A stretch of DNA of 38,331 nucleotides from Pseudomonadota bacterium (GTDB taxonomy: Bacteria > Desulfobacterota > Desulfobulbia > Desulfobulbales > Desulfocapsaceae). Made by a program: the position numbers and the translations under genes. The stretch lies in the NCBI GenBank assembly GCA_018817385.1, contig JAHIUA010000026.1, positions 1 to 38,331 on the forward strand, read 5' to 3'. Shown piece after piece: positions 5,179 to 21,898 of this stretch (its first letter is position 1; each line of letters begins with the position of its first letter). The notes below the pieces were generated by a model, which ran no database searches, had not been told where the DNA came from, and saw only the letters and a list, made by a program, of their open reading frames with translations.

Positions 5179-6283
5179 GCTTTTGGCGACATTGGTACGG
5201 GACTACCCAAATGGCGTGTCGTTCGATCCGATGGCGGTGAGGTTGTTGCGTCAGAAAATCCCGTTTGAGGATTGGCAGATTGAAAAACTTAAGACCGCGA
5301 TGGTCCAATTGGTGAGCGGGGTGTGGTTTTCCCGTGAGATGATTTTGGACGATGAGTCCCTACTGGCGTTTGAAAGGCAGTCGATGGACTGGCTAATGGA
5401 ACACGGTTGCTTTTCGGTCGAACGTTTGTTTGAAGATTTTCACGGTGTTCTTCACCATATTGCTACACCGGAAGTTTGCGCTGTCTTTCTACGGCATTTA
5501 GGGTACACGGTGAAAACGTTGGGAAAGGGAGGTCATTTTTGTTCCCTGCCCCCGCCTAATCTGGATGACAGTCTGGCGGCAATATCGGAAACGATTTCTG
5601 GATGGCTTGAAGAGGCCGATGGCACGTTGACCTTTAATGAACTAGAACAGGCGATGCCACACCTGACCCGCGAGGCGTTGGAGAGTATCCGCGTGCAATT
5701 CCTGCCGGAAGTCCATGTGGCAGAAATCGGTGGGGTGCCCTGCTGGCGCAGTACTGAGTCGATTACGCTGCCGGAGGATTTTTCGGAGAAACTGACAACC
5801 GTCGTTGATACGCTGGTTGAGTTGGAAGAGACTGTTAACGCTGCAAAACTTGAGTTCTCCTTGAATTTGTTCTACCGCTCTCGTTTGCGTGAGGAATACA
5901 CTTTGCAGGATAACGACACCTTCATGCGCGTCTGTGCGAAACACTACCAAGGCGGCAACGATGTCTTTCTAAATTCGAAGAAAAACTGCGTAAAAGCAAA
6001 AGATTTATCCGGGCCAGGCAGGCGTGTACGTAGTCCGAATACGCGCTTCAGCAACCTTGGTGTTCCGGTTGGCGCGGAACTGGTTTTTACAAAGGACCGC
6101 CATATTACTTGTGTTGTGCTGGATGGCATCAATCAAGTGGAATATGCCGGAAAAGCATGGGCGATTTCGACATTGGCGATACACTTGTTGGGTGTGTCTT
6201 CTGTAAATGGTTTTTGCCTTTTTAACTACGAGGGAGAAACATTGTGGGAGCGACGGTTGCGCCTAGAACAGGCGGCAAAATAG
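5165..6283 (+). CDS. BREX-linked accessory protein, winged-helix-like with DUF4357/RAMA-like C terminus
   Basis: I do not recognise this 372-residue protein by name. The first 200 residues look like a series of helical, winged-helix-like units (for example TIAELLATLVRDYPNGVSF and FNELEQAMPHLTREALESI). Residues about 225-300 are helical and basic. The last 85 residues resemble the DUF4357/RAMA type of small beta domain seen in restriction-modification proteins: LGVPVGAELVFTKD, then VEYAGKAWAISTLAIHLLG and a closing YEGETLWERRLRL. That suggests recognition of DNA, perhaps modified DNA. No nuclease or methylase motif is visible. ATG 5165 has GGAAGG before it and overlaps the preceding ORF by 14 bases; an ATG at 5153 is an alternative. 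It lies 64 bases before brxP, in the same orientation. The domain call is tentative. Confidence 0.7.
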   Translation: MTIAELLATLVRDYPNGVSFDPMAVRLLRQKIPFEDWQIEKLKTAMVQLVSGVWFSREMILDDESLLAFERQSMDWLMEHGCFSVERLFEDFHGVLHHIATPEVCAVFLRHLGYTVKTLGKGGHFCSLPPPNLDDSLAAISETISGWLEEADGTLTFNELEQAMPHLTREALESIRVQFLPEVHVAEIGGVPCWRSTESITLPEDFSEKLTTVVDTLVELEETVNAAKLEFSLNLFYRSRLREEYTLQDNDTFMRVCAKHYQGGNDVFLNSKKNCVKAKDLSGPGRRVRSPNTRFSNLGVPVGAELVFTKDRHITCVVLDGINQVEYAGKAWAISTLAIHLLGVSSVNGFCLFNYEGETLWERRLRLEQAAK

Positions 6284-6347: not shown

Positions 6348-8705
6348 ATGTATAGTTACAAGTGGAACAAGCTAACGGGCAGGTACTGCCTGACGACAGA
6401 GACAGGGAAATTCGTGGCGAGTGAAATCCGCCCGGTCTTCGCAGAGGAACTGACGCGCACAAATGTGGAGGCACGGTTGGTATTCGATGCAACAGAGCGG
6501 CGGCCACTCCTTTGGGCAAAGCAGAATGTATATCTGTATCGTGGCGAAGAGATAGCGAGACTCCATAGAAAACGTTACGGCAAGCCATTGGACATCGAAT
6601 GGAAGGGTGTTTTGTCCGGAAGTGAAGGCTCGCCCGAAGGTGGGAAGTCACAAAAAAAATTGAAGCTGGTACCGGTTGATGTTGAGGTGCTGGTGGCCGA
6701 AAACAAAGACATTATGGCCGCGCTAGTCGCGGATACACTTAAACGCATCAAAGAAATGTACGACGACTACGCGGGTAAATGCGACGCGGTCTATATCGGC
6801 TTCAGTGGCGGTAAGGACTCGGTGGTTCTGCTCGATCTTTGCCATAAGGTCCTACCGTTGGACGTTCCGGTTATTTTCAGTGATACGGATATGGAACTGC
6901 CGGATACTTATAGGGTCTGGGAAGAAATCCAAAGCCGCTACGAAGGCCGACCATTTTTGAAGGTCGCTGCTAAGACTTCTGCATTAGAAAACTGGCGACT
7001 CTTCGGACCGCCATCGCAAGCGTTACGTTGGTGCTGTTCCGTCCATAAGAGCACTCCCGCGATATTAGCGCTTAAAGAAAGGCTTGGAAAAATGTCAATC
7101 AAAACGATGGCATTCGTCGGAGTACGTGGTGAGGAGAGTCAGCGGCGTTCGGGATACGACGATATTGGAGATGGCTTGAAAAGCCAATCGCAGGTGAATG
7201 CCATGCCAATTTTGGCGTGGTCCGCGCATGAAGTGTGGCTTTACATTTTTGCGCACGATCTAGTTCTGAACGAAGCATACCGAAAAGGGTTACCACGTGT
7301 CGGATGCCTGATGTGCCCGATGTCAACCAACCGTCAGAATGATCTGATCCGGATGAATTACTCCGAAGAGGTCGCGCCTTTTGCTGACGCGGTGCGCTAT
7401 ACGATCGACCGCGAGTTTTCTTCCGAGGAAGACGCGGATGCGTTCGTTTACGAAGGCGGATGGTCTGCTCGGAAAAGCGGCGTATCTTTAAAACAAGTCA
7501 TTGCAGAACCTGGCGTAGAACGCAAAAGGGACCGAGTGATTTGTGAATTCCCAATTGAAGCAGAACTCACCTTAAGGGAATGGCTCAAGGCTATTGGAAA
7601 AATCGAAGGCGCAGAGTTATCATTCCATAAAGACGGTCAGAGAGGGTTGTTAGAATGTGTCTGGACAAACGGTAAAGCCAATAAGGCCGTTTCCAAGTGG
7701 CTGGCATACGCTGTCCACAAAGCTATTGCCTGCACGGGATGTAATACTTGCGCGGCGGAATGTCCGACTGGCGCGTTGCGGTTGGAGAAGGACAACTGTA
7801 GCGGCAAGACGAAGGTCTTAATTGATGAAGCAACTTGCGTCCATTGCATGCGGTGCTATGTGCCTAACGATGGATGTTGGCGATATTACTCAAAACGATA
7901 CGCAGGAGCAAGAACGATGAACATCAGCGGTATCAATAAGTATATGACTTTTGGATTGAAACCTGAATGGATTGAAGTTCTGGCGAACGAGGGACCAAGT
8001 TTTCGTCAGACGACTGCGTTGGGCAACCGGATGGTTCCCGCAGCCGTGACCTGGTTCCGTGAGGCGGGGTTTATTGAAGATTCAACGGCTATCAACACAA
8101 CGCTTCTTTTGGATGTTGGCAAGAAACGTGGTTTTAGCGACTTGCTGCTTTGGCAAATGTTGTGGTTCCGTCTCGCAAATATTTCCCCACTTGTGAAATG
8201 GTATGTCTGCAATACGGATTTAGACACCGGATATCAGCTGAAGGGGCTTGATGAAAGTCTGGCGCAATCAGTTAGTTCGGCCTCGGTGAGGAAGGGCGCA
8301 TTGCAGTCGCTTTGTCAACTGGTTAAGTCTTCTCCGCTTAGCGAAGGAGACTGGGCGTTGGTTGAAGCCGAAATGAAGGGTAGATCTGTTGAAAAACTCA
8401 CACGCCGCTCGCGTTTGGTTGATCCGCTGGTGATTCTTTATGGGTTTTATGTGATGGCGGAAAAGTCTGGGCATTCTACTTTCACGGTCCGTCATATGAT
8501 GGCGGCGGAGTTCGACGGGGAGTTTGTGTCGCCCTTGGTGATTTTCGGCATTTCTCCGGACGAGTTCAAAAAACAGTGCATGGGACTTGCAGCGATGTAT
8601 CCAGACCTCATCACGTGTAGCTTCACGCTGGGGCTGGACGAGATTCGGTTGTTCCCAGAAACGAAAAATCGGGACGATGTGGTCGGATTGATTTTGCGGA
8701 AATAG
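6348..8705 (+). CDS. brxP: BrxP: PAPS-reductase-like BREX protein with ferredoxin and DUF4007-like domains
   Basis: BrxP is the marker of type 4 BREX, which has this gene in place of a BREX DNA methylase. Of 785 residues, about 120-360 form an adenine-nucleotide alpha-hydrolase/PAPS-reductase domain: PP-loop SGGKDS (153-158), FSDTDMELPDTY, RWCCSVHK (227-234), GVRGEESQRR (258-267) and Cys320/Cys323. This is the layout of DndC and SspD, which activate DNA for sulfur insertion. Residues 462-510 form a two-cluster ferredoxin: C462-C465-C468-C472P and C497-C500-C503...C510. The last 265 residues resemble DUF4007, a domain known from phosphorothioation-linked proteins. The likely role, by inference, is Fe-S-assisted sulfur modification of host DNA. 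Start ATG 6348 has a weak GAAGG-like site. Length and domain order look intact. Confidence 0.9.
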   Translation: MYSYKWNKLTGRYCLTTETGKFVASEIRPVFAEELTRTNVEARLVFDATERRPLLWAKQNVYLYRGEEIARLHRKRYGKPLDIEWKGVLSGSEGSPEGGKSQKKLKLVPVDVEVLVAENKDIMAALVADTLKRIKEMYDDYAGKCDAVYIGFSGGKDSVVLLDLCHKVLPLDVPVIFSDTDMELPDTYRVWEEIQSRYEGRPFLKVAAKTSALENWRLFGPPSQALRWCCSVHKSTPAILALKERLGKMSIKTMAFVGVRGEESQRRSGYDDIGDGLKSQSQVNAMPILAWSAHEVWLYIFAHDLVLNEAYRKGLPRVGCLMCPMSTNRQNDLIRMNYSEEVAPFADAVRYTIDREFSSEEDADAFVYEGGWSARKSGVSLKQVIAEPGVERKRDRVICEFPIEAELTLREWLKAIGKIEGAELSFHKDGQRGLLECVWTNGKANKAVSKWLAYAVHKAIACTGCNTCAAECPTGALRLEKDNCSGKTKVLIDEATCVHCMRCYVPNDGCWRYYSKRYAGARTMNISGINKYMTFGLKPEWIEVLANEGPSFRQTTALGNRMVPAAVTWFREAGFIEDSTAINTTLLLDVGKKRGFSDLLLWQMLWFRLANISPLVKWYVCNTDLDTGYQLKGLDESLAQSVSSASVRKGALQSLCQLVKSSPLSEGDWALVEAEMKGRSVEKLTRRSRLVDPLVILYGFYVMAEKSGHSTFTVRHMMAAEFDGEFVSPLVIFGISPDEFKKQCMGLAAMYPDLITCSFTLGLDEIRLFPETKNRDDVVGLILRK

Positions 8706-8729
8706 CTGACAACAGGAGAATTGTAACAC

Positions 8730-11700
8730 ATGGCATTTTACAAAGATTATTTCGGGATCAGACCAGATTACGCGCCATTCATGACGCGTGCGAACATTGA
8801 TAAAAGTCCCGAAACCTGGCTGGCTTTTTACCCGCACGACTCGTTTGTGGAGATTTTGCGGGAGTTGCTTAAAAGCCTGAACGGTGGAAAAAAGACGATC
8901 TGGATTACGGGCGCCTACGGTACAGGTAAGAGTCATGCGTCACTGGTACTGCAGAAATTGTTCACCGACGATGAGGTGCGCGTCCAGAAATGGCTGGATT
9001 TGCGCGAGACTCAGATACCGGACCCCGTGCGGAAAGGGGTCCTGGAACGGCGCGGCGAAAAGACGCTTGTCGTTTATGACGTGAACACGGATGGCGTGGA
9101 CGCGAAAAACCAGTTTCTGATGCGCTTGCAGCGCGGTATAACGAAAGCTCTGGAGGCGGGGGGACACACTATTCCGCTGAAAGGCAAGCTGGATGAAGTT
9201 ATTCAGCGCATTCGGCAGGATGAGCCGCATTTCTTCGCAAAGCGCGATGAAATGCAGGAGCGGCTCTCGCACCTGAACGCGGGCATTAAGACGGTGGATG
9301 CGTTGGAGAAAAAGTTGCGGGATGTGAACCAAGAGGCGGGACTGGTAAGCGATGCGATGCAAGTGCTGGAGGCAAGAAATATATACCTTGGTTCGAGCGC
9401 GGAAGAATTTCTGGATTGGGCGGGTGCATCCTTGAAGGCGAACGGACTTTCCAAGTTGGTTTATATCTGGGACGAATTCTCGGCGTTCATGGATCGCAAT
9501 CGAGCGGCATTAAAGACGTTGGAACAATTAGCAGAGGCTGCGCAGCAGGGGATGTTTTATTTCGTGCCGGTGACGCATACGGATATCTCATCGTATGTGG
9601 CGGCGGGCTCCGAAAGCGCGAAGAAGGCGAACGACCGGTTCACATTCAAGCGGCTTGACTTGCCGAATGAGACTGCGCTGAAACTGGCAGCAGATGCCTT
9701 CGTTATAAAACCTGAGAAGGCAGCGGAGTGGAGACTAGAGCGCGACGAACTGTGGCACAGTGTGAACGGCGTGGCCGAAAATTACATGGCGGCTAAGAAG
9801 GCGGGCATAGATGCGGCGGACTTTAAAGGTATCCTGCCACTGCATCCAATGGCTGCGTTCCTGCTGAAACATCTTTCGGTGGCGATCGGATCAAACCAGC
9901 GGAGCATGTTTGAGTTCCTGAACGGCGAGGAGTTCAGAGCGTTCATTGAGAAAGGCGGGCTAGAGATTCCCGATCATCAGTTTCTGACGGTGGATCATCT
10001 GTGGCAGTATTTTGTGGAACGAGATGATCTAGGGACGGGGCAAGCCGTACAGGAAGCGCGGGCAGAGTACGCTCGACGCGAACAGGAATTGCAACCAGAC
10101 GAGCGGCGCGTGTTCAAAGCGGTGTTGCTGTTTGGCTTGATTGAACAGATACAGGGAACGGGGCATCCGCTGTTGGGTGTGACGGTAGAAAATGTTCAAC
10201 GCAGTTTCGAAGGGGATGGCGCTTTGCAGGGGGTGGATGCGATCCTACGTAATCTGGAACAAAAGCATTGTTTTGGGATTGTGAACGGGCGTTGCGAACG
10301 TTTTCGTGACCGTGCGGACACCAAAGAGATCGAGGAGAAAAAAGCGGCGTTGGACGGCAAGTTTGGCGATCTCGTGTTGAAAGACACCGAGGCGGAGCTG
10401 GTCAAACAATTGAAAGGTGTCAATTACGGCGGTCGTTTTAATGTGCGCGCGGCGGGTATCGGCGGCCTTTCGGCATCAAGCATTGCGAGACGCGAATCTT
10501 TTAGTGCGACGGGGAACCGCGTGCTTATACAGTTCATTCTGGCGCGAGACGAGCAGGAGCAATTGCGTATTCCTGACAAGGCAAGAGAATTGGCTAAACA
10601 GTTCAAAGACCACAGGATGCTGTTTGTGACGCTGCCGGAGGTCAGCTTCTGCCGAGATAAAGCGAAGGCATGGGAGGAGTTCACGGAAAACAGTGCTCGT
10701 CTTGCATTGGCAAGCGACAGCGCGAGCAAGAAGGTGTTCGAGACACAGGTCAACAGCGCCAAGGCGGAGTGGCAATCCAAAGTGAGTGCTGCTAAGTTCA
10801 TTGTGTACAAACCCAATCCAAACGGGGAACCGTTCGCGGAGGAAGTGACGTGGGGGCAATTTAAACGAGACTGGCTCACCGGCTATGTGAAACAGACGCT
10901 CGAGGCATATACTGACGATCTGAGTGGCTTTAACATCAGCGCGTTCGCGGCGCCGAACGCCTTGCAGAGCTGGGCGTTGGCAGGCATGGAGTTCGACAAG
11001 TTTGCCAAACCAGGCCCGTGGAGGACCGTAGTGGCGACGTGGCAGAAAAATGGCGTCACTGGTGAGGATGGATGGTTCAATGCTAATCCGAACCATCCAC
11101 TGACACAGTTGAGAGACTGCTGCAAGAAACGGCAAGACACCACGGTGGGCGCTGGCAGCACCTGCTCCATACGTAAACTTTACATCGATTTGCAACGCCC
11201 CCCATTCGGACTTCTGGGTGTGCCGCATTCGGCCTTCGTCATGGGCTTTGTGCTGAAAGCTTGGTTGATTGGTCAGCGCAAACTTCAATGGACAGACGGT
11301 GTGACAAGCAAGGCGCTGGATGCCGCGGTGCTGGCGGAAATCATCGAGGTGGTGGTGAAAGACGATGGCGCCAATGCCATCAGAAACGAGAAGCTGATCT
11401 GTCGCCTGTCGAAAGAGGAAAAGACGTTCATCGAACAGAGCAGCGTGATTTTTGAGAATAGTCCACTGGCGGACGGAACGGTGGAGGCGGCATTGAACGC
11501 GGTCGGGATACGGCTGGAAGCGATCTCAGGGCGCGTTCCACTGTGGGTGCTGCCGGAATATATCCGTGCGCAAGCTGAGCCAAGCGCTGAAGCGATGGGA
11601 ACCGTAATCGCCGCTTTGTGTGCTGCGAACAGTATCAGTTCCAAAGGAGACACCGAAACTCGCGGCAATAAGGTGAAGGAAATCGGCGAGATTCTTCTTG

Positions 11701-12881
11701 CAACGCCGGGGCTGGCGGAGGCGATGGCCAAGTATATGACGCCGGTGATCTTTGAAGAGGCGTTCCAGAGGTATGTTGATACCGCCAAACCAGAATTGAA
11801 AGCGGCTGCAGAGCGTATGGGCGATTCGTTACACAGCTATTGCAGAGCTGTCAAAAACCGTTTCGCGGAAACGAGCGGCTGGTTGTGGAAACGTGGTGAC
11901 GCTGAATCTGTACTCGAAGAAGTTTATCGGCAGACGATGTGCACTGAGCATATCCGCAGGCTGGCTGGTTCATCGGGCTACATGGGCTTCAAGGATGCTA
12001 TGAGCCGCTTGAGCATTGCAGTGCTGGACGAGAACAAAGTGCCGATGGAGTTCTGGACCAGGAAACACCCGGCGTTGCAGCGCTTCTTTGATTTACTCAA
12101 TAGACCGCTGTTGTCCGGAGAGGATGTGAAAGCTTTTGAGGAGATTTTAGCACAGCAAGAAGCTGTTATCCGCGAGGTGTTCTTTGATGTCGCTCAAAAG
12201 CGGCAGCTGAATGCGATGCGGGAAATTTTTGGAGAGATTTGGCCGGTGTCGATTGCGGAAAGCAGGGAGCTTTACAATACCTTCCCGTCGAATCTGGCGA
12301 CATTTGATGAGCTGAGTTTTAAGACTCAAGGGCGTGGCAGGATTGAGGAGTATAGCCGGACACTGGTTTCCAAACAAGTGTTGGTGGTGTGGCGCGAACG
12401 TACAGGAACGGAGTCGCCAAACGATTGGAGCTGCAAACACGCGCTTCCCGCCGAATTCGTTTTAGCGGTGGACGATGCCAAAGGTATCATCGATGCGGTC
12501 GCGAATCCAGGAGGAGTGTCGGCGGAACGCTTACAATTTGTGCATAACGAACTTCAAAAAGAGGGTACGTTTGAGGATGTGTCCAAGGCGGGTGAAAAAT
12601 TTCTCAAAAGGGTACTGCCTGATCGTTATCAAATATTCGGGTTCAGAGTCGAAGAACTGAGTGATTGGTTGTGCAGGAAATTAGGCGACGAACCGAACCA
12701 ATGGCAGACGGACGGAGGGTTTAGCGATGCAGTCGAGTCGTTCATTAAACAAGGATATGACAATCTTGCACGGAACCAGGCTGCAGAAAAGGTTAATAGG
12801 CTTTCGGATGCCGAAGCGAAGATACTGCTCTTGAAGCTGATTGATCAAATCCCCGATGTAGGGTTTTCGGTGCTGGAGTAA
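8730..12881 (+). CDS. brxC: BrxC/PglY: large P-loop ATPase of BREX
   Basis: This 1383-residue protein is the BREX ATPase (BrxC/PglY, DUF499-like). Walker A is GAYGTGKS (61-68) and Walker B is LVYIWDEFSAF with D248/E249, followed by a typical sensor-like segment FYFVPVTHTDIS. The remaining 1000 residues are mostly helical, with no other enzymatic motif visible, as expected in the family. BrxC is a core component, conserved in all BREX types, that probably loads or coordinates the DNA-acting complex. AGGAG at 8714-8718 precedes the ATG by 11 bases. It begins 24 bases after brxP and ends 4 bases before pglZ, so the three are co-transcribed. No frame break was seen. Confidence 0.93.
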   Translation: MAFYKDYFGIRPDYAPFMTRANIDKSPETWLAFYPHDSFVEILRELLKSLNGGKKTIWITGAYGTGKSHASLVLQKLFTDDEVRVQKWLDLRETQIPDPVRKGVLERRGEKTLVVYDVNTDGVDAKNQFLMRLQRGITKALEAGGHTIPLKGKLDEVIQRIRQDEPHFFAKRDEMQERLSHLNAGIKTVDALEKKLRDVNQEAGLVSDAMQVLEARNIYLGSSAEEFLDWAGASLKANGLSKLVYIWDEFSAFMDRNRAALKTLEQLAEAAQQGMFYFVPVTHTDISSYVAAGSESAKKANDRFTFKRLDLPNETALKLAADAFVIKPEKAAEWRLERDELWHSVNGVAENYMAAKKAGIDAADFKGILPLHPMAAFLLKHLSVAIGSNQRSMFEFLNGEEFRAFIEKGGLEIPDHQFLTVDHLWQYFVERDDLGTGQAVQEARAEYARREQELQPDERRVFKAVLLFGLIEQIQGTGHPLLGVTVENVQRSFEGDGALQGVDAILRNLEQKHCFGIVNGRCERFRDRADTKEIEEKKAALDGKFGDLVLKDTEAELVKQLKGVNYGGRFNVRAAGIGGLSASSIARRESFSATGNRVLIQFILARDEQEQLRIPDKARELAKQFKDHRMLFVTLPEVSFCRDKAKAWEEFTENSARLALASDSASKKVFETQVNSAKAEWQSKVSAAKFIVYKPNPNGEPFAEEVTWGQFKRDWLTGYVKQTLEAYTDDLSGFNISAFAAPNALQSWALAGMEFDKFAKPGPWRTVVATWQKNGVTGEDGWFNANPNHPLTQLRDCCKKRQDTTVGAGSTCSIRKLYIDLQRPPFGLLGVPHSAFVMGFVLKAWLIGQRKLQWTDGVTSKALDAAVLAEIIEVVVKDDGANAIRNEKLICRLSKEEKTFIEQSSVIFENSPLADGTVEAALNAVGIRLEAISGRVPLWVLPEYIRAQAEPSAEAMGTVIAALCAANSISSKGDTETRGNKVKEIGEILLATPGLAEAMAKYMTPVIFEEAFQRYVDTAKPELKAAAERMGDSLHSYCRAVKNRFAETSGWLWKRGDAESVLEEVYRQTMCTEHIRRLAGSSGYMGFKDAMSRLSIAVLDENKVPMEFWTRKHPALQRFFDLLNRPLLSGEDVKAFEEILAQQEAVIREVFFDVAQKRQLNAMREIFGEIWPVSIAESRELYNTFPSNLATFDELSFKTQGRGRIEEYSRTLVSKQVLVVWRERTGTESPNDWSCKHALPAEFVLAVDDAKGIIDAVANPGGVSAERLQFVHNELQKEGTFEDVSKAGEKFLKRVLPDRYQIFGFRVEELSDWLCRKLGDEPNQWQTDGGFSDAVESFIKQGYDNLARNQAAEKVNRLSDAEAKILLLKLIDQIPDVGFSVLE

Positions 12882-12885
12882 TGCC

Positions 12886-15015
12886 ATGACACTGAACGAG
12901 TTTTGCGAATACCTCAAGAATCCCCTTGCGGAAGCGAAGGCGCGGGTGGTCATCTCTCCTCCTGGAGAGAGTTGGACGGCGTTGCGACGGTTTTGCCTGG
13001 AACACGGGGGCATTGAGTTGCGTTTGAGCGATATTGTGAATGAAAACGCGTGGCTCCCTATGCCTGATGAAGTCTTCCGGCGAGTGTCAGGAATAATGAC
13101 GGCACAGGAAGCAAGCGGTAAGGATGTGGTATTGTTGGGGTTGCCCGGCTATCTTGCGTTGTTAACGGACGAGAATAAACGGGCTGCGATTGTTGCATTA
13201 CGCGAATGGGTGGACGGTGCGTGTGGGTATGAAGCGTTATGTTTGTTGCGGAGCGATGATGGCACAGGATTGATTGTCAAGGATATTTTCGTCAATCCTC
13301 GCTACCGACAGGGTAAGCAACTCATTGTAATTGAAGACGGAAATGTCCTGTCGCCGATCGCCTCCGAAGAAACGGAAAGAATCTCGAGGCGTACGGAGGT
13401 GATGCTAGTCGAGGACGCTTTGGCATCCTTTGTCCCGGAAGTGTGTGACACATTTCAGAAGTATTTACGATATATCGAGGAACATCCAAGCGACAGCTCT
13501 GCACGGCGGATTGTTGTAGCATCAGAAGGGCGGGAATTGGCGGGGCTCAGCGTCGAGGTGCGGCAGGTGGTGTGTCTGCGGGATTTTGCTCGCGTGTTTT
13601 ACGACGTTGAAGATACGGGATTATCCGAAGATGTTTTGCGGTGGATGTGTCAGCAGGGTAAAAAAGGTGCAGGTAAAACACTGCCAGAAATACTCAAGAC
13701 TTTTTTTTTCCAAGAAGATGGGATAACAAAACGAGTCTTGTGTGTGTTTAATGGACACAACGGAATAGAACGTGAGGCGTTACTCTGGCTGATTAAACAC
13801 CTCGCGCACAAGGGAAGTTACCTCGAGTGTGTTGCGAGGCAAGAAGGGGTTCTTGTCAGCAATTTCCGCTCCGCATACATAACTGGCGCGGCGGAATGGC
13901 TGGATGAGTCTGTGTTGTATGCTAGTGAACGTAGAGATGCTATACGGGAAGCGGATGTTAGAATGTCCGGTGCGGATATCCGACAGTTCATCGTGCGTTG
14001 CACGGGCGAATCCACGTCGCGCGTTGCGCCATGGTTGAATTGCGGGACGGATATGGAGCGAGCGGAATTACTGCGGCGTTGTGCGGTGGATGGCATTGCG
14101 TCAAACGCCGTAAAAAACGTGTATCCAGAAGTGGCCGCGTATTTACACTTGGAGAGTTTTTTTAACGATGTGACTCTAGAAGACTATTTCAGGAAATACC
14201 GTGAGCTAAAAATAGCAGGCCGAGTGACACCTGAGTTTTACGAAAGAGCGCAGTTGGAGGTTCCCCCGAATTTTGTACAATCGCGAGACGCGATCGTGCA
14301 ACGGTATACATTGGACAACGGGTGCGCGTTGCTGGTGGTGGACGCAATGGGTGCGGAGTGGTTGCCGATGTTAGTGATGCTGGCACTGCAACGGAATATG
14401 GGCGTGGATTCAATTGCGGTTGGTGAGGCTAATTTACCGACAACAACGCAGTTTAACAATATCTATTGGCCGGACGTGGCGCGGCGATTACCGGATATCA
14501 AACGCTTCGACAACATTGTGCACAACGGTGTGGAGACGCACGAGACTAGGTGCGCGGAGGAAAATCTGGCTGCAGCATTGGATGTTATTGGTGGCGAGGT
14601 GTTACCGCGTGTGGCGGAAGGGCTGATACAGTTTGAGCGGGTGCTTGTTACAGCAGATCATGGGAGTTCGCGGCTAGCGGTGTTAGCATGGCAGACAAAA
14701 CCTAGACTAGCGCGGACACTCTCCTGTGAAACTGGGGCTGATGTTGCAGATTGGCGTTACCGTGAGCGAGCGGCGCAAGGCACATGTCCTCCGGAGCTAG
14801 AGGAAACATTGGACGGCAGGCATTGGGTGGTACGCGGGTATAATCGGTTGCCCAAGAAGGGTGGCGGACAGGGCTTTGAGATACACGGAGGGGCTACATT
14901 GGATGAGCGACTGGTGCCGGTTGTGATTTTCTCGAGGAAAGGTCAGTTCGTGCCGAATGAGAAGACTAGTGGCAAGAGAGCGCAGATTGTTGAGAACGAC
15001 GATTTTGATTTGTAG
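12886..15015 (+). CDS. pglZ: PglZ: alkaline-phosphatase-superfamily protein of BREX
   Basis: The 709-residue PglZ is the hallmark BREX gene. The C-terminal half is the phosphatase/metal-hydrolase domain: LLVVDAMGAEWLPML (metal-binding D486), then VLVTADHGSSRLAVL (D591-H592), followed by the HGGATLDERLVPVV segment typical of PglZ C termini. The N-terminal 450 residues are the less conserved helical part. The exact reaction is unknown; PglZ is required for phage defence and contacts other BREX proteins in studied systems. The start at 12886 is 4 bases after the brxC stop. brxL follows after 22 bases. Metal-binding residues and length are intact, so the gene is likely functional. Confidence 0.92.
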   Translation: MTLNEFCEYLKNPLAEAKARVVISPPGESWTALRRFCLEHGGIELRLSDIVNENAWLPMPDEVFRRVSGIMTAQEASGKDVVLLGLPGYLALLTDENKRAAIVALREWVDGACGYEALCLLRSDDGTGLIVKDIFVNPRYRQGKQLIVIEDGNVLSPIASEETERISRRTEVMLVEDALASFVPEVCDTFQKYLRYIEEHPSDSSARRIVVASEGRELAGLSVEVRQVVCLRDFARVFYDVEDTGLSEDVLRWMCQQGKKGAGKTLPEILKTFFFQEDGITKRVLCVFNGHNGIEREALLWLIKHLAHKGSYLECVARQEGVLVSNFRSAYITGAAEWLDESVLYASERRDAIREADVRMSGADIRQFIVRCTGESTSRVAPWLNCGTDMERAELLRRCAVDGIASNAVKNVYPEVAAYLHLESFFNDVTLEDYFRKYRELKIAGRVTPEFYERAQLEVPPNFVQSRDAIVQRYTLDNGCALLVVDAMGAEWLPMLVMLALQRNMGVDSIAVGEANLPTTTQFNNIYWPDVARRLPDIKRFDNIVHNGVETHETRCAEENLAAALDVIGGEVLPRVAEGLIQFERVLVTADHGSSRLAVLAWQTKPRLARTLSCETGADVADWRYRERAAQGTCPPELEETLDGRHWVVRGYNRLPKKGGGQGFEIHGGATLDERLVPVVIFSRKGQFVPNEKTSGKRAQIVENDDFDL

Positions 15016-15037
15016 TATTAATGAGGGGCAATCCACC

Positions 15038-16492
15038 ATGTTTGGTACTGAAAAATTACGGGCGGCATTCCAGGACACGACGGTCTTTAAGGATCCTAAC
15101 ATCGTGGCGATCTTCAAAGCGGCGTCGATTCCGTCTTTTTTGCGGGATTGGATTTTGAAGCGCAAAGCGGAGTCTGACGGTAGAATCCACGATGCTGAGG
15201 CTTTGCGAAAATACATTTACGAAATCATCCCACGCCGGGAAAATTTATTGGAATTGAAGGACGCGGCGCGAAGTGAGGGATGCACGAAGAAGTTTCTAGC
15301 CAAAATTGAAATCCAATTCAGCGTGCGGTCTGACGAATACACGTTTGCGATTCCAGAATTGGGTTTTGGGCATGCTGAAACTCTGATCGAGGATTATGTT
15401 TGGAATCGAATCAAAGATGATGTTGTAAAAACGTCTGGTGGCTGGGGGCTTGTACAACTGGGATACCGGAGCCCTGATGGCGAGAATCCTCGAGGATGTT
15501 TCACTCTCTTAGAATACAAGAATTTCTGTCCTTACACGATTGATCTGGATGCCTATAGAGAGGCTCGCAGTCAATTCACAGCGGAGGAGTGGATCGACGT
15601 TGTGTTGGGAGCGATTGATTACAACCCTGAGGGATACGAAGATTGGGTACAGAAACATACTGTCCTGACGCGTCTACTACCGTTCATTGAACCACGACTG
15701 AATCTTGTGGAGCTGGCGCCCAAAGGAACGGGTAAGTCGTATATGTTCGGGCGGGTGGGGAAATACGGTTGGTTAGTCAGTGGAGGGACACTAACGCGTG
15801 CGAAGATGTTTGGTGACATCAATGGGAAGAGCCCAGGTCTGATCGCGTCGAATGACTTTGTAGCATTGGATGAAATCCAGTCGATCAATTTCCACGACCC
15901 GAGCGAGATGCAAGGCGCGCTCAAAGCTTTCATGGAAAGTGGGGAGATCACGGTTGGCAAGAACCGTATAATTGGTGGGGCCGGTGTCATCCTGTTGGGG
16001 AACATACCACAAACAGAGATGGACGAAACCAAAGACATGTTTCAGAGGCTACCGACAGTGTTTCATGAATCGGCATTATTGGACCGGTTCCATGGTTTTA
16101 TCCGAGGGCGTGACATCCCTCGTATGAGTGAGAACCTGAAAATCAACGGTTGGGCTCTGAACACGGAGTATTTTTCCGAGATAATGCATCTATTGCGCCA
16201 GCCGGCGGAGACGCTAATTTATCGGCATGTTGTTGAAAGGCTGGTAGACTATCCTCCCGAAGCGGACACTCGTGACACAGAAGCGGTTTTACGGTTGTGC
16301 ACGGCCTACCTTAAACTGCTGTTTCCACACGCCACAGAGCCGGATGGCATTGACAAGTTAGAGTTTAAGAGATACTGTCTACGCCCCGCCGTGCAGATGC
16401 GCACGGTGATCCGGCAGCAGTTACAGAAGATAGATCCACTTGAATACGGAGGAAAGAACGTAGCCGCATACACGTTACGCGAAGTAGAATAA
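15038..16492 (+). CDS. brxL: BrxL: AAA+ Lon-like BREX protein, short type 4 form
   Basis: A 484-residue AAA+ ATPase of the BrxL family. The N-terminal region carries family segments AFQDTTVFKDP and PSFLRDWILKRKAE. The ATPase core has Walker A APKGTGKS (227-234), the pore-side segment LVSGGTLTRAKMFGD, Walker B FVALDEIQ (D278/E279) and the arginine-rich ALLDRFHGFIRGRD. Type 1 BrxL is near 680 residues and ends in a Lon-like protease domain; here nothing follows that could hold its Ser-Lys pair. The short form is known in type 4 systems. Structural work on BrxL indicates DNA binding by a barrel-shaped AAA+ assembly. ATG 15038 is preferred because GAGGGG lies 9 bases upstream; the in-frame extension to 14957 would overlap pglZ by 59 bases. 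Confidence 0.9.
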   Translation: MFGTEKLRAAFQDTTVFKDPNIVAIFKAASIPSFLRDWILKRKAESDGRIHDAEALRKYIYEIIPRRENLLELKDAARSEGCTKKFLAKIEIQFSVRSDEYTFAIPELGFGHAETLIEDYVWNRIKDDVVKTSGGWGLVQLGYRSPDGENPRGCFTLLEYKNFCPYTIDLDAYREARSQFTAEEWIDVVLGAIDYNPEGYEDWVQKHTVLTRLLPFIEPRLNLVELAPKGTGKSYMFGRVGKYGWLVSGGTLTRAKMFGDINGKSPGLIASNDFVALDEIQSINFHDPSEMQGALKAFMESGEITVGKNRIIGGAGVILLGNIPQTEMDETKDMFQRLPTVFHESALLDRFHGFIRGRDIPRMSENLKINGWALNTEYFSEIMHLLRQPAETLIYRHVVERLVDYPPEADTRDTEAVLRLCTAYLKLLFPHATEPDGIDKLEFKRYCLRPAVQMRTVIRQQLQKIDPLEYGGKNVAAYTLREVE

Positions 16493-16701
16493 TGAGGAGA
16501 AGAAAACAAATTAATTGTGCTTATTGTAGCAAAGAGAAGCTTTCCAAGAATGTCATCGGACTTAACAAGAAACTTATCCAACCGCATATTGAACGGATGA
16601 TGTGCCTTGTGTGTATGGCTGGGTATTTTGAGACGACAGAAGATGAATTGAAAGATATGATCGAAAGATTTAAGAGGGAAGGTTGCGCGTTATTCGGATG
16701 A
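16492..16701 (+). CDS. Small CxxC/CxxC protein, probable zinc ribbon, coupled to brxL
   Basis: A 69-residue protein with C9-x2-C12 and a second CxxC in MMCLVCMAGYF (about residues 38-41), spaced like a small treble-clef or zinc-ribbon domain, followed by a helix and a closing REGCALFG. Similar small proteins of unknown function, with the pattern CxYC...LGLN-K...MCLxC-A-Y...F-EEGC-LF, occur in many anaerobes. The ATG shares a base with the brxL stop (TAATG), so it is translationally coupled and belongs to the BREX operon. A metal-binding adaptor is the simplest reading; a cluster donor to the BrxP ferredoxin is speculation. It is the last gene before the convergent methyltransferase. Confidence 0.75.
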   Translation: MRRRKQINCAYCSKEKLSKNVIGLNKKLIQPHIERMMCLVCMAGYFETTEDELKDMIERFKREGCALFG

Positions 16702-16733
16702 GGCAAGGGTGGAAAGTGTTCACTCGTAGTAAA

Positions 16734-16748
16734 TCAGATCAGATCTGA
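16734..16748. repeat. 15-base inverted repeat at the convergent junction
   Basis: TCAGATC and GATCTGA flank a single A (16734-16748), 33 bases after the CxxC gene. It contains three overlapping GATC sites. No T-run follows, so it is not a clear terminator; it may be a protein-binding site or a weak transcription barrier between the convergent operons. Confidence 0.35.
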
Positions 16749-16873
16749 CAAATACCAGTTTTGGCAGGGCATTCTTTTTTAAGTGGATAATAGGTAATCG
16801 TTTTTTTAACTATCTGTCCATAATTGCGAAAGCTTCTTATTGAAGACTAATTGTTTCTAGAAATGGGTTTTCC

Positions 16874-18910
16874 CTACTGCCTGTAAAATCTATATCCACG
16901 AATCACCAGTCCCTCTTGCTCCTTAAGGTTTGATTCAAAATCTTCCCACGCTGGTCCAAATTCTTTTAGATCAAGCCACTTAAAGCTTTTCAACCGTTTA
17001 TCAAAGGCTAATTGTTGCTTGAAGTATGGGAAATCTCCTCCGATATAAGTGGTTTTTACATAAAGAGGCTGGGGCTTATACTTCCCAGTATAATTAAAAA
17101 AATCTATAGATTGCTCCTTTAGTTTGACCTTAATTCGTTCTAACAGAAGAGGTAAGGGTTTACCCTCAAAATCATCATAGCGCATGAGTGAAACTTTTCC
17201 TGAGCAGATATGAATTTTTATAAGGTTAGCATTTTCGATGTCACCATAAAGTTGTGTAGCATAACCAATGTAAACTCGAAGAACGGCTGGGAGCTCATTC
17301 AAATAATCACGGTGGATGGTTAATGAATGTCCTTCAACCATTTTGCCTTTTGGAACTCTGTCGTAAAATTCTTCACAAGCCGTCTGAATAGTATCTGGTT
17401 TACCTACTGAAAACAATAGATCCTTCGCTTGGTTGAGGGCATCTGTGTATTTTCCGAAAAATGACTTTATATCACGTTTTAAACCCTCAGGCATATGGAC
17501 GTATGGTTTACGTTGGCCAAAAAGACCCAGGGCAAAATACACGAGCAGATCATCACATCGAGCCTGTGCTGCTTGTCTGAAGATCTCATCACCATGAAAG
17601 GTAGTCAAAACAGTAAGAGCTCGCGCGTGTGATCCACATAGTGCCCGAATACGTTCTGAGAATTCAAACTCTGCATTTGCTGGTAAGCGCCCAAGGTCAA
17701 GGCATAAATTCCAAAAATCGTCAAAGAGTTCACGATGTCTCTCAAGCAACGAGCGTTGCTGTATTTTGAGCTTTTCTGGATGATCAGTGTATGACAACCG
17801 CAGCCATGTTTTTTTGCTGGTTTGTCGCTGGACAAGAAAATTTTGTTCTTCAATCTCGTCCTTAAATACATAAAATAGACCTGGACCAACAGCTACAGGA
17901 TCTTGATTTAAGGAATCAGCAATGTAATTCTTAAGTTCAGTTTGGGTATAATATTTTTGAAATGTGTTGCGTGAAGTGACAACTCCATCGCCGAACTCTT
18001 TAAACTGACTGGTAATTGATTCTCCTCCAAGCATGGCAGATACAACCAAAATCTTCTTTGTTTGTTTAAATGCCTGTTGAAGTGTTTCTTTGCGCTCTTT
18101 GGGATTTTCAATGACATTTATTACAAAGCCTAAGTTCACAATATCAGACGGTATTTTTGGTTTATCTGGATTGTAAACAGGATCCCATCCTGAAGCTTCA
18201 ACACCATTCTCCCTCAGAATGGTTAAATCATCGCCCTTACCACAGCCATAATCGAAAAGAGAATATTGTCTTTCAAAATAATTATGCCTGAGAAGTGACT
18301 GCATAGGAGTTGATAATTTGTTGCGATCAATTGCTGTCCTATGACGGGCAATTTCTTGCGGATAAGTAGCATTGACTGGTGTTGGTATTTTGTCTTTATT
18401 CCTTTGCAAATGACCATTCAAAAGCACATATCCTTTCTTGGTAATAAGGAGTTCCCAGGACTTTTTGAATCCGATCGTCCGTGTGTTTTCAAACAACCCG
18501 GCTTTCTCGCCTTCTCTAGTTATCTCTCGGAACACTGGTACGGAAGGATGCGTTGATTCTAAAAAGGTCTCTTTTCTATGCAGAATCGGTGGGTTTTCTG
18601 ATTTTTCGTAACTACTTGACCGGACGGTGTTTTTCTGAAGGTCTATGGTGTGGCTTGCATGGAGGGCGGGGTAAGAATCCTCAAAAAATGCAGGGTAAAA
18701 CAGAAGGGAAATTTTAAAGTCTTTTTTAAAAAACTTAACGATGTTCCATGGGGTACTAGCAATTTCTATCTTTTCAATTGTTTTGAAAAGATAGGCGTGC
18801 AAATCATTTGGGACAGCAGCCATTGCAGATTGATGGAGATAGATTGCATCTGGCAATCTTTTACCAACTTTTAGCTGGCCAACCAGTTTTTTATATTCAG
18901 CGAAATCCAT
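16874..18910 (-). CDS. DNA phosphorothioation-associated putative methyltransferase
   Basis: This 678-residue protein belongs to the Dnd-related putative methyltransferase family (TIGR04096 type). The N terminus has the family start VGKRLPDAIYLHQSA. After about 185 residues the segment ARHRTAIDRNKLSTPMQSLL leads into a class I methyltransferase core: motif I DYGCGKGDDL (220-229), then GWDPVYNPDKPKIPSDIVNL and a VINVIENPKER helix. The remaining 350 residues are family-specific. Its target is unknown; the name comes from recurrent linkage to dnd phosphorothioation genes. Here no dnd genes are seen, but brxP next door is the DndC-like enzyme. It is much more AT-rich than the BREX genes, suggesting separate acquisition. 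No clear ribosome site precedes the ATG; the upstream gene ends 54 bases away on the same strand. Confidence 0.85.
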   Translation of the reverse strand: MDFAEYKKLVGQLKVGKRLPDAIYLHQSAMAAVPNDLHAYLFKTIEKIEIASTPWNIVKFFKKDFKISLLFYPAFFEDSYPALHASHTIDLQKNTVRSSSYEKSENPPILHRKETFLESTHPSVPVFREITREGEKAGLFENTRTIGFKKSWELLITKKGYVLLNGHLQRNKDKIPTPVNATYPQEIARHRTAIDRNKLSTPMQSLLRHNYFERQYSLFDYGCGKGDDLTILRENGVEASGWDPVYNPDKPKIPSDIVNLGFVINVIENPKERKETLQQAFKQTKKILVVSAMLGGESITSQFKEFGDGVVTSRNTFQKYYTQTELKNYIADSLNQDPVAVGPGLFYVFKDEIEEQNFLVQRQTSKKTWLRLSYTDHPEKLKIQQRSLLERHRELFDDFWNLCLDLGRLPANAEFEFSERIRALCGSHARALTVLTTFHGDEIFRQAAQARCDDLLVYFALGLFGQRKPYVHMPEGLKRDIKSFFGKYTDALNQAKDLLFSVGKPDTIQTACEEFYDRVPKGKMVEGHSLTIHRDYLNELPAVLRVYIGYATQLYGDIENANLIKIHICSGKVSLMRYDDFEGKPLPLLLERIKVKLKEQSIDFFNYTGKYKPQPLYVKTTYIGGDFPYFKQQLAFDKRLKSFKWLDLKEFGPAWEDFESNLKEQEGLVIRGYRFYRQ

Positions 18911-18964
18911 ATTTGCATTTTCTATATTTGTGACCTAGTCAGTATCTCTTCATGTTTGCTGCAC

Positions 18965-20173
18965 TTATTTTACAAGAATCAGAGTGCTTAGGCCAAGATC
19001 CGTAATTTTAGCATTCTCCATCGTTATTGAAAGATTAATGTTAAAGTCTTTTGGAAAAGGTCGAGTATAAGCAGGGTTCATACATTTCCCCTCTTTTTCT
19101 CTGCAATCGGCAGGCAAGCAAAATGGGCACGGGATAGGATAATGAAAGGAAAAAGCTAAAAGAGCAAATTTCTCTATGAATTTCTCAATTTTTAACAATT
19201 GTCTGATTAGCATTTTTCTATCGTGGCTTGTGACCGGTTGGCTTGCTGTGGTAATGATAACTGCGTAGTTAAAGTAGGAAAGGAATTCACCCCAACCGTA
19301 TCGTTTGGTCTCGTCAGTAATGACTTCTGACAGTTGAAGCCAATAACAGTTTGTTTCTCCAGAGGAAAGCTTGGTGATCTCATCTGGTAAACTAATTGTA
19401 TCTTCCCCCCGGGCTGGATTCTCATAACTTGGTGTAGATTTTTTTTGAATGTCGACGAAGTCAGCCCCGTAAAAAAGAGGAATGTGGTAATCTTGACTTA
19501 ATTGAATTGCTATTAATTTGTTGATTGCCACACTTCCTACACAGACCTGTGTCGTCTCTTTCCGGGCAGATATGAAGCCCAAAAGTTCCCTCAAATTTAC
19601 AATACAGGTATTGAGCATACAAGAAATGCTGAGAAAATCGGGCTGATGTTTATCAATGGCGTCAAGCCAGGAATGCGGTTTGATTTTTGCCCCGAGTTTA
19701 AAGACATTATAGCCCTGAGTTTGCCAAAGTTGTTCAAGAAAAGAGCTGCCAAGATCCTGCCCTGCTGGCGCCATCACTCCGGATACAATAATCAGAGGTT
19801 TTGCGGGGCGTTCCGGCGGTAAAAAGAGAAAGCAGTACGTTATTGCTTGGGAAAAGGCGTAGATGTCAGCAACGGCAACCCTTTTATCCTTTGAAATATT
19901 TTTAGCTAATCGGTAGCCATTATGGGAGAGCATGTATTGAAATTTAAACTCATCCAGACACTCCATTAATAGGGTTAATATTTCATTGACAGTATGTGCT
20001 CTACGAAGCTCTTTGATAAGAGCTGAGATGTTTTGCTTTGTTTCTTCTTCGTCTATGACTGGAAGGCTATAAGAATGTTGTTTAGTTTGAAGAATGGAAC
20101 CATTTTTGTCCGCTTGGAACGAGATCGCGGACCATATTGAAGTTGTTGTATGAGAAAAATTATTTTTTATCAT
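18965..20173 (-). CDS. Cobalamin-binding-fold protein with Cys-rich DUF2284-like tail
   Basis: A 402-residue protein I do not recognise by name. Residues about 125-245 have the Rossmann-like layout of B12-binding domains: PLIIVSGVMAPAGQDLGSSF, GYNVFKLGAKIKPHSWLDAI, QPDFLSISCMLNT, then a VCVGSVAIN segment. The DxHxxG loop that supplies the cobalt-ligand histidine is replaced by PAGQDLG, so base-off binding with a His ligand is unlikely. The C-terminal 60 residues carry C349-x2-C352-x4-C357-x6-C364 followed by NPAYTRPF, as in DUF2284 metal-binding proteins. Together this suggests a corrinoid- or Fe-S-linked function. It overlaps the DUF2797 gene by 4 bases (ATGA) and lies 54 bases before the methyltransferase gene, so a three-gene operon is likely. 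Function unknown. Confidence 0.65.
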   Translation of the reverse strand: MIKNNFSHTTTSIWSAISFQADKNGSILQTKQHSYSLPVIDEEETKQNISALIKELRRAHTVNEILTLLMECLDEFKFQYMLSHNGYRLAKNISKDKRVAVADIYAFSQAITYCFLFLPPERPAKPLIIVSGVMAPAGQDLGSSFLEQLWQTQGYNVFKLGAKIKPHSWLDAIDKHQPDFLSISCMLNTCIVNLRELLGFISARKETTQVCVGSVAINKLIAIQLSQDYHIPLFYGADFVDIQKKSTPSYENPARGEDTISLPDEITKLSSGETNCYWLQLSEVITDETKRYGWGEFLSYFNYAVIITTASQPVTSHDRKMLIRQLLKIEKFIEKFALLAFSFHYPIPCPFCLPADCREKEGKCMNPAYTRPFPKDFNINLSITMENAKITDLGLSTLILVK

Positions 20174-20967
20174 GATGTTATCACGACTTCATACCCTTCA
20201 AATTTTCTAATGTTGATTACCTTCTCAGCATCAAACATTAGATATTGACCTTTAATGCCAGTCAGAACACCTTCAATGTATGGTGATTTCTCGGGGTTAA
20301 AGGATATTATTTTGCTAGGATATTGCAACACAGGAAATCGGCCTGTAAAAACAGAGTAGTTGGAACACAGATATTTTCGAAGTTCGACAGTTAAAGACGT
20401 TTGCGCTAGGCTATAGGCCTCTTGAAAATCAGCTGCTAGCAAAACCTCATTCCGTAACATTTTTTGCCAATGTGTTCTATCTGTGAATAATTCTTTCAAT
20501 TCAACTTCAATTTCTCCAGCTAGATATCTGTTGGGCGTGTGGGCAATAGTGACAGCATATGAAGCCCCTTGGTCAATCCAACGTGTAGGGATATTGCTAT
20601 CTTTTGTCACCCCAACTTTTACTGCACTACTTATTGCCAAATAAACAACATGAGGTTGGTTATGATTATGTTGTTCCCATTCGATATCTCTTCCTTCTCC
20701 AAGATGTGCACGGCAAAGTTCTGGCCGAATAATGCAGGGTGCTGCCTCAGGAGCATTTCTAAAACATGGGAAGCAAAAGCCTTGAGCGAAGCTTTTCTTC
20801 GTTAGTTTGCCACAACTTTTACAATAAATTTTACCTGTAAACTCTATTTTGAGTTCTTTACCAATGAAATCATTAAGAAGCACCAATCCATCATCGGTAG
20901 ATAATTGATACTGAATCGGATCTCCGTTTGAGGCTATTAATTTCTTTAAATTTGTATTGATTATCAT
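20170..20967 (-). CDS. DUF2797 family protein
   Basis: A 265-residue protein with the strong DUF2797 signature. A four-Cys zinc site CKSCG...GFCFPCF is followed by APEAAPCIIRPELCRAHLGE, EWEQHNHNQPHVVYLAISS, and VKVGVTKDSNIPTRWIDQGA, then TPNRYLAGEIEVELKEL. The VYLA...KVGVT-R-IDQGA part resembles a GIY-YIG-like fold, hinting at nucleic-acid cleavage or binding, but no activity is established for the family. ATG 20967 was chosen; an in-frame TTG at 20979 is the alternative, and neither has a clear ribosome site. It is the first gene of the - strand set DUF2797/B12-like/methyltransferase. Low GC, like its neighbours. Family call is firm, function unknown. Confidence 0.85.
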   Translation of the reverse strand: MIINTNLKKLIASNGDPIQYQLSTDDGLVLLNDFIGKELKIEFTGKIYCKSCGKLTKKSFAQGFCFPCFRNAPEAAPCIIRPELCRAHLGEGRDIEWEQHNHNQPHVVYLAISSAVKVGVTKDSNIPTRWIDQGASYAVTIAHTPNRYLAGEIEVELKELFTDRTHWQKMLRNEVLLAADFQEAYSLAQTSLTVELRKYLCSNYSVFTGRFPVLQYPSKIISFNPEKSPYIEGVLTGIKGQYLMFDAEKVINIRKFEGYEVVITS

Positions 20968-20979
20968 CACATTTTTCAA

Positions 20980-21350
20980 ATGTTATATCTAAAATAGTCC
21001 GTGTCTCTAGTTGGTTAAGCTCAACTAGAAATTTGGTGGATCGGTTTACATGTGCGAGGCAATCATTGAGAATGCAGTGCTTATCAAGCGACTTTAATCA
21101 GCAAATAATATTTTTGTCATTATTTTGATTATGAGGTAGTCAAAAATGGAGACCAGACAGAGTGATAGTCATAAAACCATTATCTGGGCATTGGAAGAAC
21201 TGTTGCCTTTGAGATAGAGTATCTCATAGCAACTGCTAGAATATGCTGACCAAGGATTGAGAGCAGAATTGGTTTCCACGATCTTCATGAAGATACAAAC
21301 GTTTCTCGGGAAGATGGATGTCTGTTTAAGGCCAGTACATAGGAAGGAAC
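20980..21350. other. Intergenic region with an inverted repeat and gene debris
   Basis: No intact gene is supported. TCTAGTTG (21006-21013) and CAACTAGA (21022-21029) form a perfect 8-base inverted repeat 39 bases before the DUF2797 start, a plausible operator for that operon. The rest, to 21350, has short frames broken by stops and probably contains decayed sequence of the regulator whose C terminus survives at 21351-21584. Confidence 0.4.
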
Positions 21351-21584
21351 TTGGTGGTGAAGTATTATCGACAGTGTCGGGGATACGTCGGGGAAAACGT
21401 CGGGGACAATTTTGGGGAAAATTTTGGAGGCTATCTTGCAAATAACACCATCACCATCCCAGAACTATCAGTACTCATTGGAATAACAGAGCGTTCCATT
21501 GAACGTAATCTTCAGAAACTACAGAAGGAAGGTACACTGAAACGTATCGGCCCAGCCAAAGGCGGGCATTGGCAGGTTTCTTGA
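21351..21584 (+). pseudogene. C-terminal remnant of an AlbA/RecG-like transcriptional regulator
   Basis: The ORF encodes a single HTH of the type that ends the RecG-like/AlbA_2 ATP-binding regulators: NNTITIPELSVLIGITERSI, then RNLQKLQKEGTLKRIGPAKG and GHWQV. It is preceded by the repeat GYVGENVGDNFGENFG, a linker typical of the same proteins (VGENVG repeats). The whole protein is normally 400-500 residues, and the AlbA and ATPase parts are absent; upstream sequence has stops in every frame. The ATG at 21351 lies within the linker and has no clear ribosome site. This is most likely the surviving tail of a gene destroyed by insertion or deletion. It could still yield a free HTH peptide. Confidence 0.6.
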
Positions 21585-21685
21585 CATATTTGCAAGAAGT
21601 GGTAATGGATGTTTGAAGTAAGGTCGATATTTTTGCCGGTTAACCTGTTTGTAAATCGATTTTCGTGCAATGAGAGGGGGAGGCC

Positions 21686-21886
21686 ATGACAATTGGAGCC
21701 ATTAGTATAATCATAGGCGTTGTTCTCTTGATTCTTCTTAAAATGTTCTTTAGCGATTCGGAAAATATCAATCAAAATGGCCAAATCCATGGGGTTGATC
21801 ACGATGAGCTGTTCAAAGAGGATCTTGATTTCGATCCGAGCTGGGCTGTTCTTTCTTCAAATACTCATCATTCCGAAGATGATTAA
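21686..21886 (+). CDS. Small single-span membrane protein
   Basis: A 66-residue protein with one N-terminal hydrophobic segment (AISIIIGVVLLILLKMFF, residues 5-22) and an acidic, His-containing cytoplasmic or periplasmic tail. The ribosome site GAGAGGGGGAGG just before the ATG is one of the strongest in the window, and a good terminator follows the stop, which supports a real gene. I do not recognise the family. It lies tail to tail with traG. Confidence 0.55.
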   Translation: MTIGAISIIIGVVLLILLKMFFSDSENINQNGQIHGVDHDELFKEDLDFDPSWAVLSSNTHHSEDD

Positions 21887-21898
21887 TACAACACTGCG

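Follow-up and report, generated by a model that had tools for sequence, protein, structure and literature searches.

A TIGR04096 methyltransferase facing a type 4 BREX operon looks like an exchangeable accessory of DNA phosphorothioation systems

The window analysed here, a 38,331-nucleotide stretch of a Desulfocapsaceae genome (assembly GCA_018817385.1, contig JAHIUA010000026.1), carries a type 4 bacteriophage exclusion (BREX-4) operon and, converging on it, an operon encoding a putative methyltransferase of family TIGR04096. Sulfur marking of DNA by BREX-4 is already known, and the census of TIGR04096 loci reported here is new. TIGR04096 looks like an exchangeable accessory, or "plug-in", common to the Dnd, Ssp and BREX-4 systems and paired in this window with BREX-4, and its recurrence beside three sulfur-marking systems suggests a shared methylation step. 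The best explanation as a whole, to which we assign a probability of roughly 0.5, is that the methyltransferase is a separately acquired accessory of phosphorothioate (PT) systems that acts via its flanking domains on a shared target and methylates nucleic acid.

A species-genome scan with a nine-sequence alignment returned at least 522 confirmed relatives of the methyltransferase. The 80 closest loci were kept, picked by methyltransferase similarity and independently of their neighbours, and were sorted by small profiles built here from few seeds. A Dnd writer was present at 28 of them, an Ssp writer at 25 and a BREX-4-like set at 5; the remainder had SspFGH only (4), a cysteine desulfurase only (6) or none of these genes (12). 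Of the 47 loci with flanks of at least 9 kb in each direction, 41 had PT genes (22 Dnd, 13 Ssp, 3 BREX-4-like and 3 SspFGH only), these being raw counts, uncorrected for how often other defence genes flank the family. When 20 genomes, namely all 18 of the "none" and "desulfurase only" classes and two others, were searched for DndC, four had a match over the cut-off elsewhere and one had a match just under it. The family is named "DNA phosphorothioation-associated putative methyltransferase", and its product name is listed next to dndABCDE in PMC8416521. The open-licence full text searched, with passages of PMC8092258 and PMC10853773, gave no description of the family together with Ssp or BREX-4. 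Our census supports a TIGR04096–PT link that is not confined to dnd and includes ssp and BREX-4-like loci; the link between sulfur and methyltransferase proposed in the initial annotation is partly borne out, in a broader form that is not tied to one system.

Individual loci illustrate this range. Among plasmid records (6 of the 30 listed matches examined), ssp–SspFGH and dnd cases occur with public annotation, a cyanobacterial case has DUF4007 and a cysteine desulfurase, and one record (L045) shows no PT gene. The dnd loci of Rhodococcus RL1 and a Pseudoalteromonas plasmid hold the same family with a strong score, and the Pseudoalteromonas protein shares the domain layout of the window's methyltransferase at 47% identity; in contrast to these loci, the genome of the window is without detected dnd genes, and its methyltransferase faces the BREX-4 operon and does not lead dndBCDE. 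Azospirillum, Methylobacterium and Falsirhodobacter plasmids have Ssp-type writer genes near TIGR04096, and another genome has TIGR04096-sspB-sspC-sspD on one strand (G018); compared with the SspBCD-SspFGH system as described in part of PMC8092258, the window lacks SspFGH, has PglZ and BrxL instead, and has a fused writer. Six further loci (L053, L054, L058, L062, L077 and L095) show a mixed arrangement of a DndD-like ATPase gene, an Ssp-type writer and TIGR04096.

Like the window, the five remaining loci (L052, L067, L073, L078 and L122) hold PglZ and BrxL alongside writer genes of ssp type. L052, L073 and L122 have SspC- and SspB-type genes, PglZ and BrxL, and a separate SspD was seen in L052 only, L067 and L078 being cut by the contig or flank. 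We term these loci BREX-4-like because the four PglZ proteins tested all scored under the NF033445 cut-off. The methyltransferase faces brxL in 4/5, with other genes between, and these loci differ from the window in their distant PglZ, in a cysteine desulfurase (4/5) and in a partner gene of about 175 amino acids (4/5). This partner lies beside or fused to TIGR04096 in 43 of 89 other loci searched (for example L078:9463-9996); its L073 copy is without a Pfam match, and its L078 copy is without a PADLOC or NCBIfam match.

The position of the gene is also regular. The nearest writer gene lies 3' of the methyltransferase in 35 of 38 full-flank writer loci (binomial p 7e-8, a value that ignores relatedness), and the window shows the same layout. 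A writer occurs within 3 kb of the methyltransferase in 27/28 Dnd, 10/25 Ssp and 3/5 BREX-4-like loci, and in 27 of the 28 Dnd loci the methyltransferase gene is followed by dndB on one strand. On a quick LG+G4 tree of 92 sequences (71 labelled, SspFGH-only loci counted as Ssp, long branches flagged), the Dnd/Ssp/BREX-4 label required at least 16 changes, an approximate count that compares with a minimum of 2 and with 27.2 on average after shuffling; none of 200 shuffles was as low. System labels are thus related to the methyltransferase tree but have often been exchanged. The BREX-4 cases fall in five separate places, with clustering not beyond chance (71/500 shuffles as low), and the window's methyltransferase groups with two ssp-linked proteins (L055 and L049), not with BREX-4 ones. 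Since the gene follows the product across three machineries, it would be likelier to act on that product, sulfur-marked DNA, than on one machine.

In the genome of the window (5.38 Mb in 105 contigs, 100% complete), BrxP is the only candidate sulfur writer detected. A genome-wide PF01507 profile search gave two matches only, BrxP and a protein read as TilS, and DndD was not found over the cut-off (best 28 bits against 246). A separate DndC or SspD was likewise not found, as judged via PF01507, their own profiles not having been run on this genome. The earlier observation that no dnd genes are visible thus holds genome-wide, and hidden dnd or ssp genes elsewhere in the genome, which the initial annotation had named as a refuting explanation of the methyltransferase, were rejected on the PF01507 and DndD searches; in this form the check did not refute the initial reading. 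There is no detected dnd or ssp writer to account for the TIGR04096 gene, and, BREX-4 being the only writer detected, its mark would be the only one that the methyltransferase could meet in this genome. No cysteine desulfurase is among the annotated genes of the window, and no search for one was made across the genome; 56% of type 4 BREX taxa have this enzyme according to part of PMC12839542.

The BREX-4 operon, on the plus strand, is complete and comprises six genes. The first (5153..6283, 376 amino acids), directly 5' of brxP, has a PDC-S57-like C-terminus (65 bits, a PADLOC candidate) and homologues in matching position in G161 (648 bits), G919 (620 bits), G865 (588 bits) and IMG/VR contig L135. 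The second, brxP (6348..8705, 785 amino acids), matches the PADLOC BrxP profile end to end with 957 bits and encodes a PP-loop PAPS-reductase-like sulfurtransferase domain, a 4Fe-4S domain and a C-terminal SspB/DUF4007-like part. The DndC/SspD-like PP-loop domain noted in the initial annotation is borne out by a PAPS_reduct match (PF01507, 108 bits, residues 150-324), by weaker matches to SspD (44 bits) and DndC (30 bits), and by an intact SGGKDS motif; Cys229, Cys320 and Cys323 are common to BrxP and the SspD of L052. The 4Fe-4S domain (Fer4_7) lies near residues 461-504, eight ferredoxin-type cysteines are conserved across the seven BrxPs compared, and the SspB of L052 aligns to BrxP profile positions 550-776, pointing to the SspB-like C-terminal part. 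Downstream follow brxC/pglY (8730..12881), encoding an SspC-related ATPase (PADLOC BrxC 2631 bits, SspC 74 bits) with a Walker A motif at residue 61, a BREX-4-type pglZ (12886..15015; PADLOC PglZ 1231 bits, NF033445 BREX_PglZ_4 147.7 bits against a cut-off of 140) and brxL (14957..16492; TIGR02688 391 bits against a cut-off of 329, PF13337 363 bits, PADLOC 754 bits). The simple Walker A pattern present in BrxC was not found in BrxL, whose ATPase domain still matches full length. A small gene (16492..16701, 69 amino acids), read from its sequence as a zinc-finger-like CxxC...CxxC protein, overlaps the brxL stop; counterparts close to brxL were found in G161 (107 bits) and G224 (48 bits) and not in G919 or G865. 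The order orf-brxP-brxC-pglZ-brxL is kept in the closest relatives found (G161, G919 and G865).

A fused BrxP, a BREX-4-type PglZ, BrxC and BrxL, the features of BREX-4 membership, are all present in the window. Production of PT by brxPCZL is stated in PMC11931770 and PMC12839542, both of which cite a preprint by Yuan et al. (2024), so that the role of BREX-4 as a PT writer, raised in the initial annotation, is published for other members; by analogy, the BREX-4 of the window would write PT into DNA. The operon is like type 4 BREX as described (part of PMC12839542; Yuan et al. 2024) in all four core proteins, in the fused PAPS-reductase with its SspB-like part and in the small zinc-finger-like gene, and differs from it by the adjoining TIGR04096 operon. 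A small zinc-finger protein, to which the window's family may correspond, is mentioned for type 4 BREX in PMC12839542. Contig L135 (noted at 7873-10008) carries a BREX-4 operon 79.5% identical to window positions 6335-15037 and ends inside it; its copy of the first gene has extra repeats of a stretch of about 90-100 amino acids, and its BrxP reads SCGKDS in place of SGGKDS in the PP-loop.

The methyltransferase gene (16874..18910, minus strand) lies immediately opposite, as initially annotated, with 172 bp between the zinc-finger-like gene and its stop. Its reading frame is intact, and its product matches TIGR04096 with 656 bits (cut-off 150) over residues 186-677. A class I S-adenosylmethionine (SAM) domain (residues 186-360; DYGCGxG motif in 42/45 sequences) sits between two copies of one domain. 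The duplication is apparent from the G018 homologue, which has the C-terminal copy only: this copy aligns to the C-terminal part of the window's protein and also to its residues 8-170 (33% identity, E 5e-20). The N-terminal copy carries the motif NPPILHRKE, exact in 36 of 45 sequences. A stand-alone 157-residue copy of the flanking domain, without the methyltransferase, was seen in G371 (L176, 8768-9238), where the profiles used found no PT gene within the 18 kb examined. The viral contigs L139, L140 and L141 have a TIGR04096-like methyltransferase domain preceded in-frame by what appears by eye to be a ParB-N-type stretch (L139 and L141 sequences); L139 and L140 each have a PAPS-reductase-like gene directly 3' of the methyltransferase.

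The AlphaFold2 model of the methyltransferase had a mean predicted local distance difference test (pLDDT) of 89.7. Its best solved fold matches were METTL6, toxoflavin N-methyltransferase, RedM and an Aquifex enzyme without assigned function, which make up the only six chains at E <=0.001; further matches include Trm9, HEN1, CmoA, small-molecule enzymes and some structural-genomics entries lacking a known substrate. The alignments span about 170-290 columns with query template-modelling (TM) scores of 0.12-0.19 and are of a size that fits the methyltransferase domain. No solved sequence homologue was found at E 0.01. The modelled fold thus resembles tRNA, HEN1 and small-molecule methyltransferases, and the candidate substrates are RNA, an oxygen or sulfur at an end or in the backbone, and a small molecule. 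The initial annotation had the enzyme act on or near the mark. Methylation of a DNA base there is not favoured, because [SND]PP[YFW] and PC[QN], the latter being the Cys motif of DNA base methyltransferases, occur in 0/45 sequences, and none of the 50 best fold matches listed is titled a DNA methyltransferase. The [SDN]PP[FYW] motif of DNA methyltransferases is described in part of PMC10853773.

From these observations we favour the following scheme. BrxP, BrxC and the SspB-like C-terminus would write PT into host DNA, and PglZ and BrxL would act against unmarked DNA, both roles being extrapolated from what is published on BREX-4. The methyltransferase gene facing this operon would be a separately acquired accessory of PT systems in general, whose NPPILHRKE-type flanking domains may bring the enzyme to something common to the three systems, most likely sulfur-marked DNA. 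The SAM-dependent class I domain would then methylate a nucleic-acid target there. A more specific version, in which TIGR04096 is a common second-step PT enzyme of Dnd, Ssp and BREX-4, its flanking domains reading the mark and its HEN1/METTL-like domain methylating the mark or the adjoining sugar-phosphate to give a doubly modified backbone or to remove the mark, seems to us improbable.

Several results weigh against this scheme. TIGR04096 was over the cut-off in 0/8 other fused-BrxP genomes (among them G014, whose brxP is broken, and G206, with a TIGR04096 match of 18.6 bits, below the cut-off); BREX-4 therefore does not need the methyltransferase. In a 395-genome sample of the phylum, BrxP exceeded 400 bits in seven genomes (including that of the window, and one broken) and TIGR04096 was over the cut-off in three, and the genome of the window alone has both. 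A full-length BrxP was in none of the 28 TIGR04096 genomes searched by the BrxP profile (best 63 bits). The Ssp writer is often not adjacent, lying within 3 kb at the 10 of 25 loci given above and within 500 bp at 1/25. Desulfoferrobacter (L125) has TIGR04096 without a recognised writer; the single BrxP-profile match in its genome (63 bits) fits neither the SspD nor the DndC profile built here, and DndC was not found. The partner of about 175 amino acids is without a match in the window. Base composition also differs by about 12 points of guanine-plus-cytosine (GC) content: the AT-rich block holding the methyltransferase operon (16700..21900) has about 38-41% GC (~39%), against 51% for BREX-4 and 50% for the transfer (tra) genes, the transitions being sharp and lying near 16.6 and 21.9 kb. 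This difference indicates that the two blocks were probably acquired separately and, with the 0/8 count, argues against the earlier proposal that the two operons form one fixed system. Elsewhere, two of the 316 genomes searched from the phylum of G820, a Labilibaculum metagenome-assembled genome, had a fused BrxP. In the phylum of G406 (Vibrio), 398 genomes gave none at E 1e-80, a weak negative, as only two candidates per genome were scored among the matches listed and the controls were silent too.

The same facts leave room for a reading in which the two operons are defence-island neighbours on a conjugative element that do no joint work, the methyltransferase serving another PT system of the lineage or being idle. 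We consider this possible, though not probable. It fits the sharp GC edges, the F-type tra genes and AbiE alongside, the lack of TIGR04096 in the eight other fused-BrxP genomes, and the closest methyltransferase relatives, which sit with ssp and not with BREX-4. Against it, no other PT writer was detected in the genome, the 3'-side layout is that of the 35/38 PT-linked loci, five more BREX-4-like pairings occur in four other branches, and the methyltransferase reading frame is intact. The F-type conjugation operon lies beyond the methyltransferase operon. On the other side, 5' of the BREX-4 operon (2330-4105 and 4708-5178), are an AbiEii toxin-like gene preceded by a weak AbiEi-like gene, and a short DrmD/DpdE-like SNF2 helicase fragment. 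Distant DNA searches with the AT-rich block matched 3% of the query in plasmids and, in its own genome, returned the block itself and one stretch of about 200 bases at 69%. A phage origin of the BREX-4/methyltransferase pair was considered and rejected, there being one partial phage record and most viral-contig matches covering the methyltransferase domain only.

The three minus-strand genes of the AT-rich block are probably one operon. A gap of 54 bp separates the methyltransferase gene from that of a B12-binding-domain-like protein with a DUF2284-like Cys-rich tail (18965..20173; NF047996 45 bits and PF02310 27 bits, both below cut-off), which overlaps by 4 bp the gene of a DUF2797 protein (20170..20979; PF10977 288 bits). 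The region initially annotated ends at 20967, near the end of the latter. The cobalt-ligand His of corrinoid proteins sits in a DxHxxG motif; the apparent site here reads AGQDLG by eye, and neither the ligand His nor a score over the curated cut-off was found. The B12-like family occurs in 1/395 phylum genomes, that of the window; the sole other copy seen, in L125 (8297-8966, minus strand), is broken and is separated from TIGR04096 by about 1 kb. A single-sequence structure model of the protein reached a pLDDT of 38.8, and a viral-contig scan for it was unproductive. The tight spacing, and the recurrence of so rare a family near TIGR04096 in L125, which has no recognised PT writer, fit a task shared by the methyltransferase and its operon mates that is unrelated to DNA sulfur. 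We hold this to be unlikely: the B12-like gene was unmatched in 79 of 80 census loci (many with short flanks) and hence is not the usual requirement of TIGR04096, and linkage to PT is far commoner. Elsewhere in the window, Rfam and tRNA scans gave a cobalamin riboswitch as the only match (124 bits; 35027-35211, minus strand), upstream of a CbiK-like gene that is adjoined by CbiM, CbiQ and ABC ATPase genes (33918-38149). Finally, a conventional DNA base methyltransferase that places m6A, m4C or m5C next to the PT mark, which the family name and the linkage to PT writers might suggest, is very improbable given the motif and fold results above.

Our preferred reading, that of a PT accessory shared among systems, bears on how sulfur marks are handled in bacteria. 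Dnd, Ssp and BREX-4 have a common product and little common machinery. A methyltransferase found repeatedly next to each of them, and passing from one to another, points to a product-directed step of a kind that would be novel in DNA backbone-mark chemistry. The window offers a clean test case, since no writer other than BREX-4 was detected in its genome, and the methyltransferase is a testable candidate for why PT sites are only partly modified.

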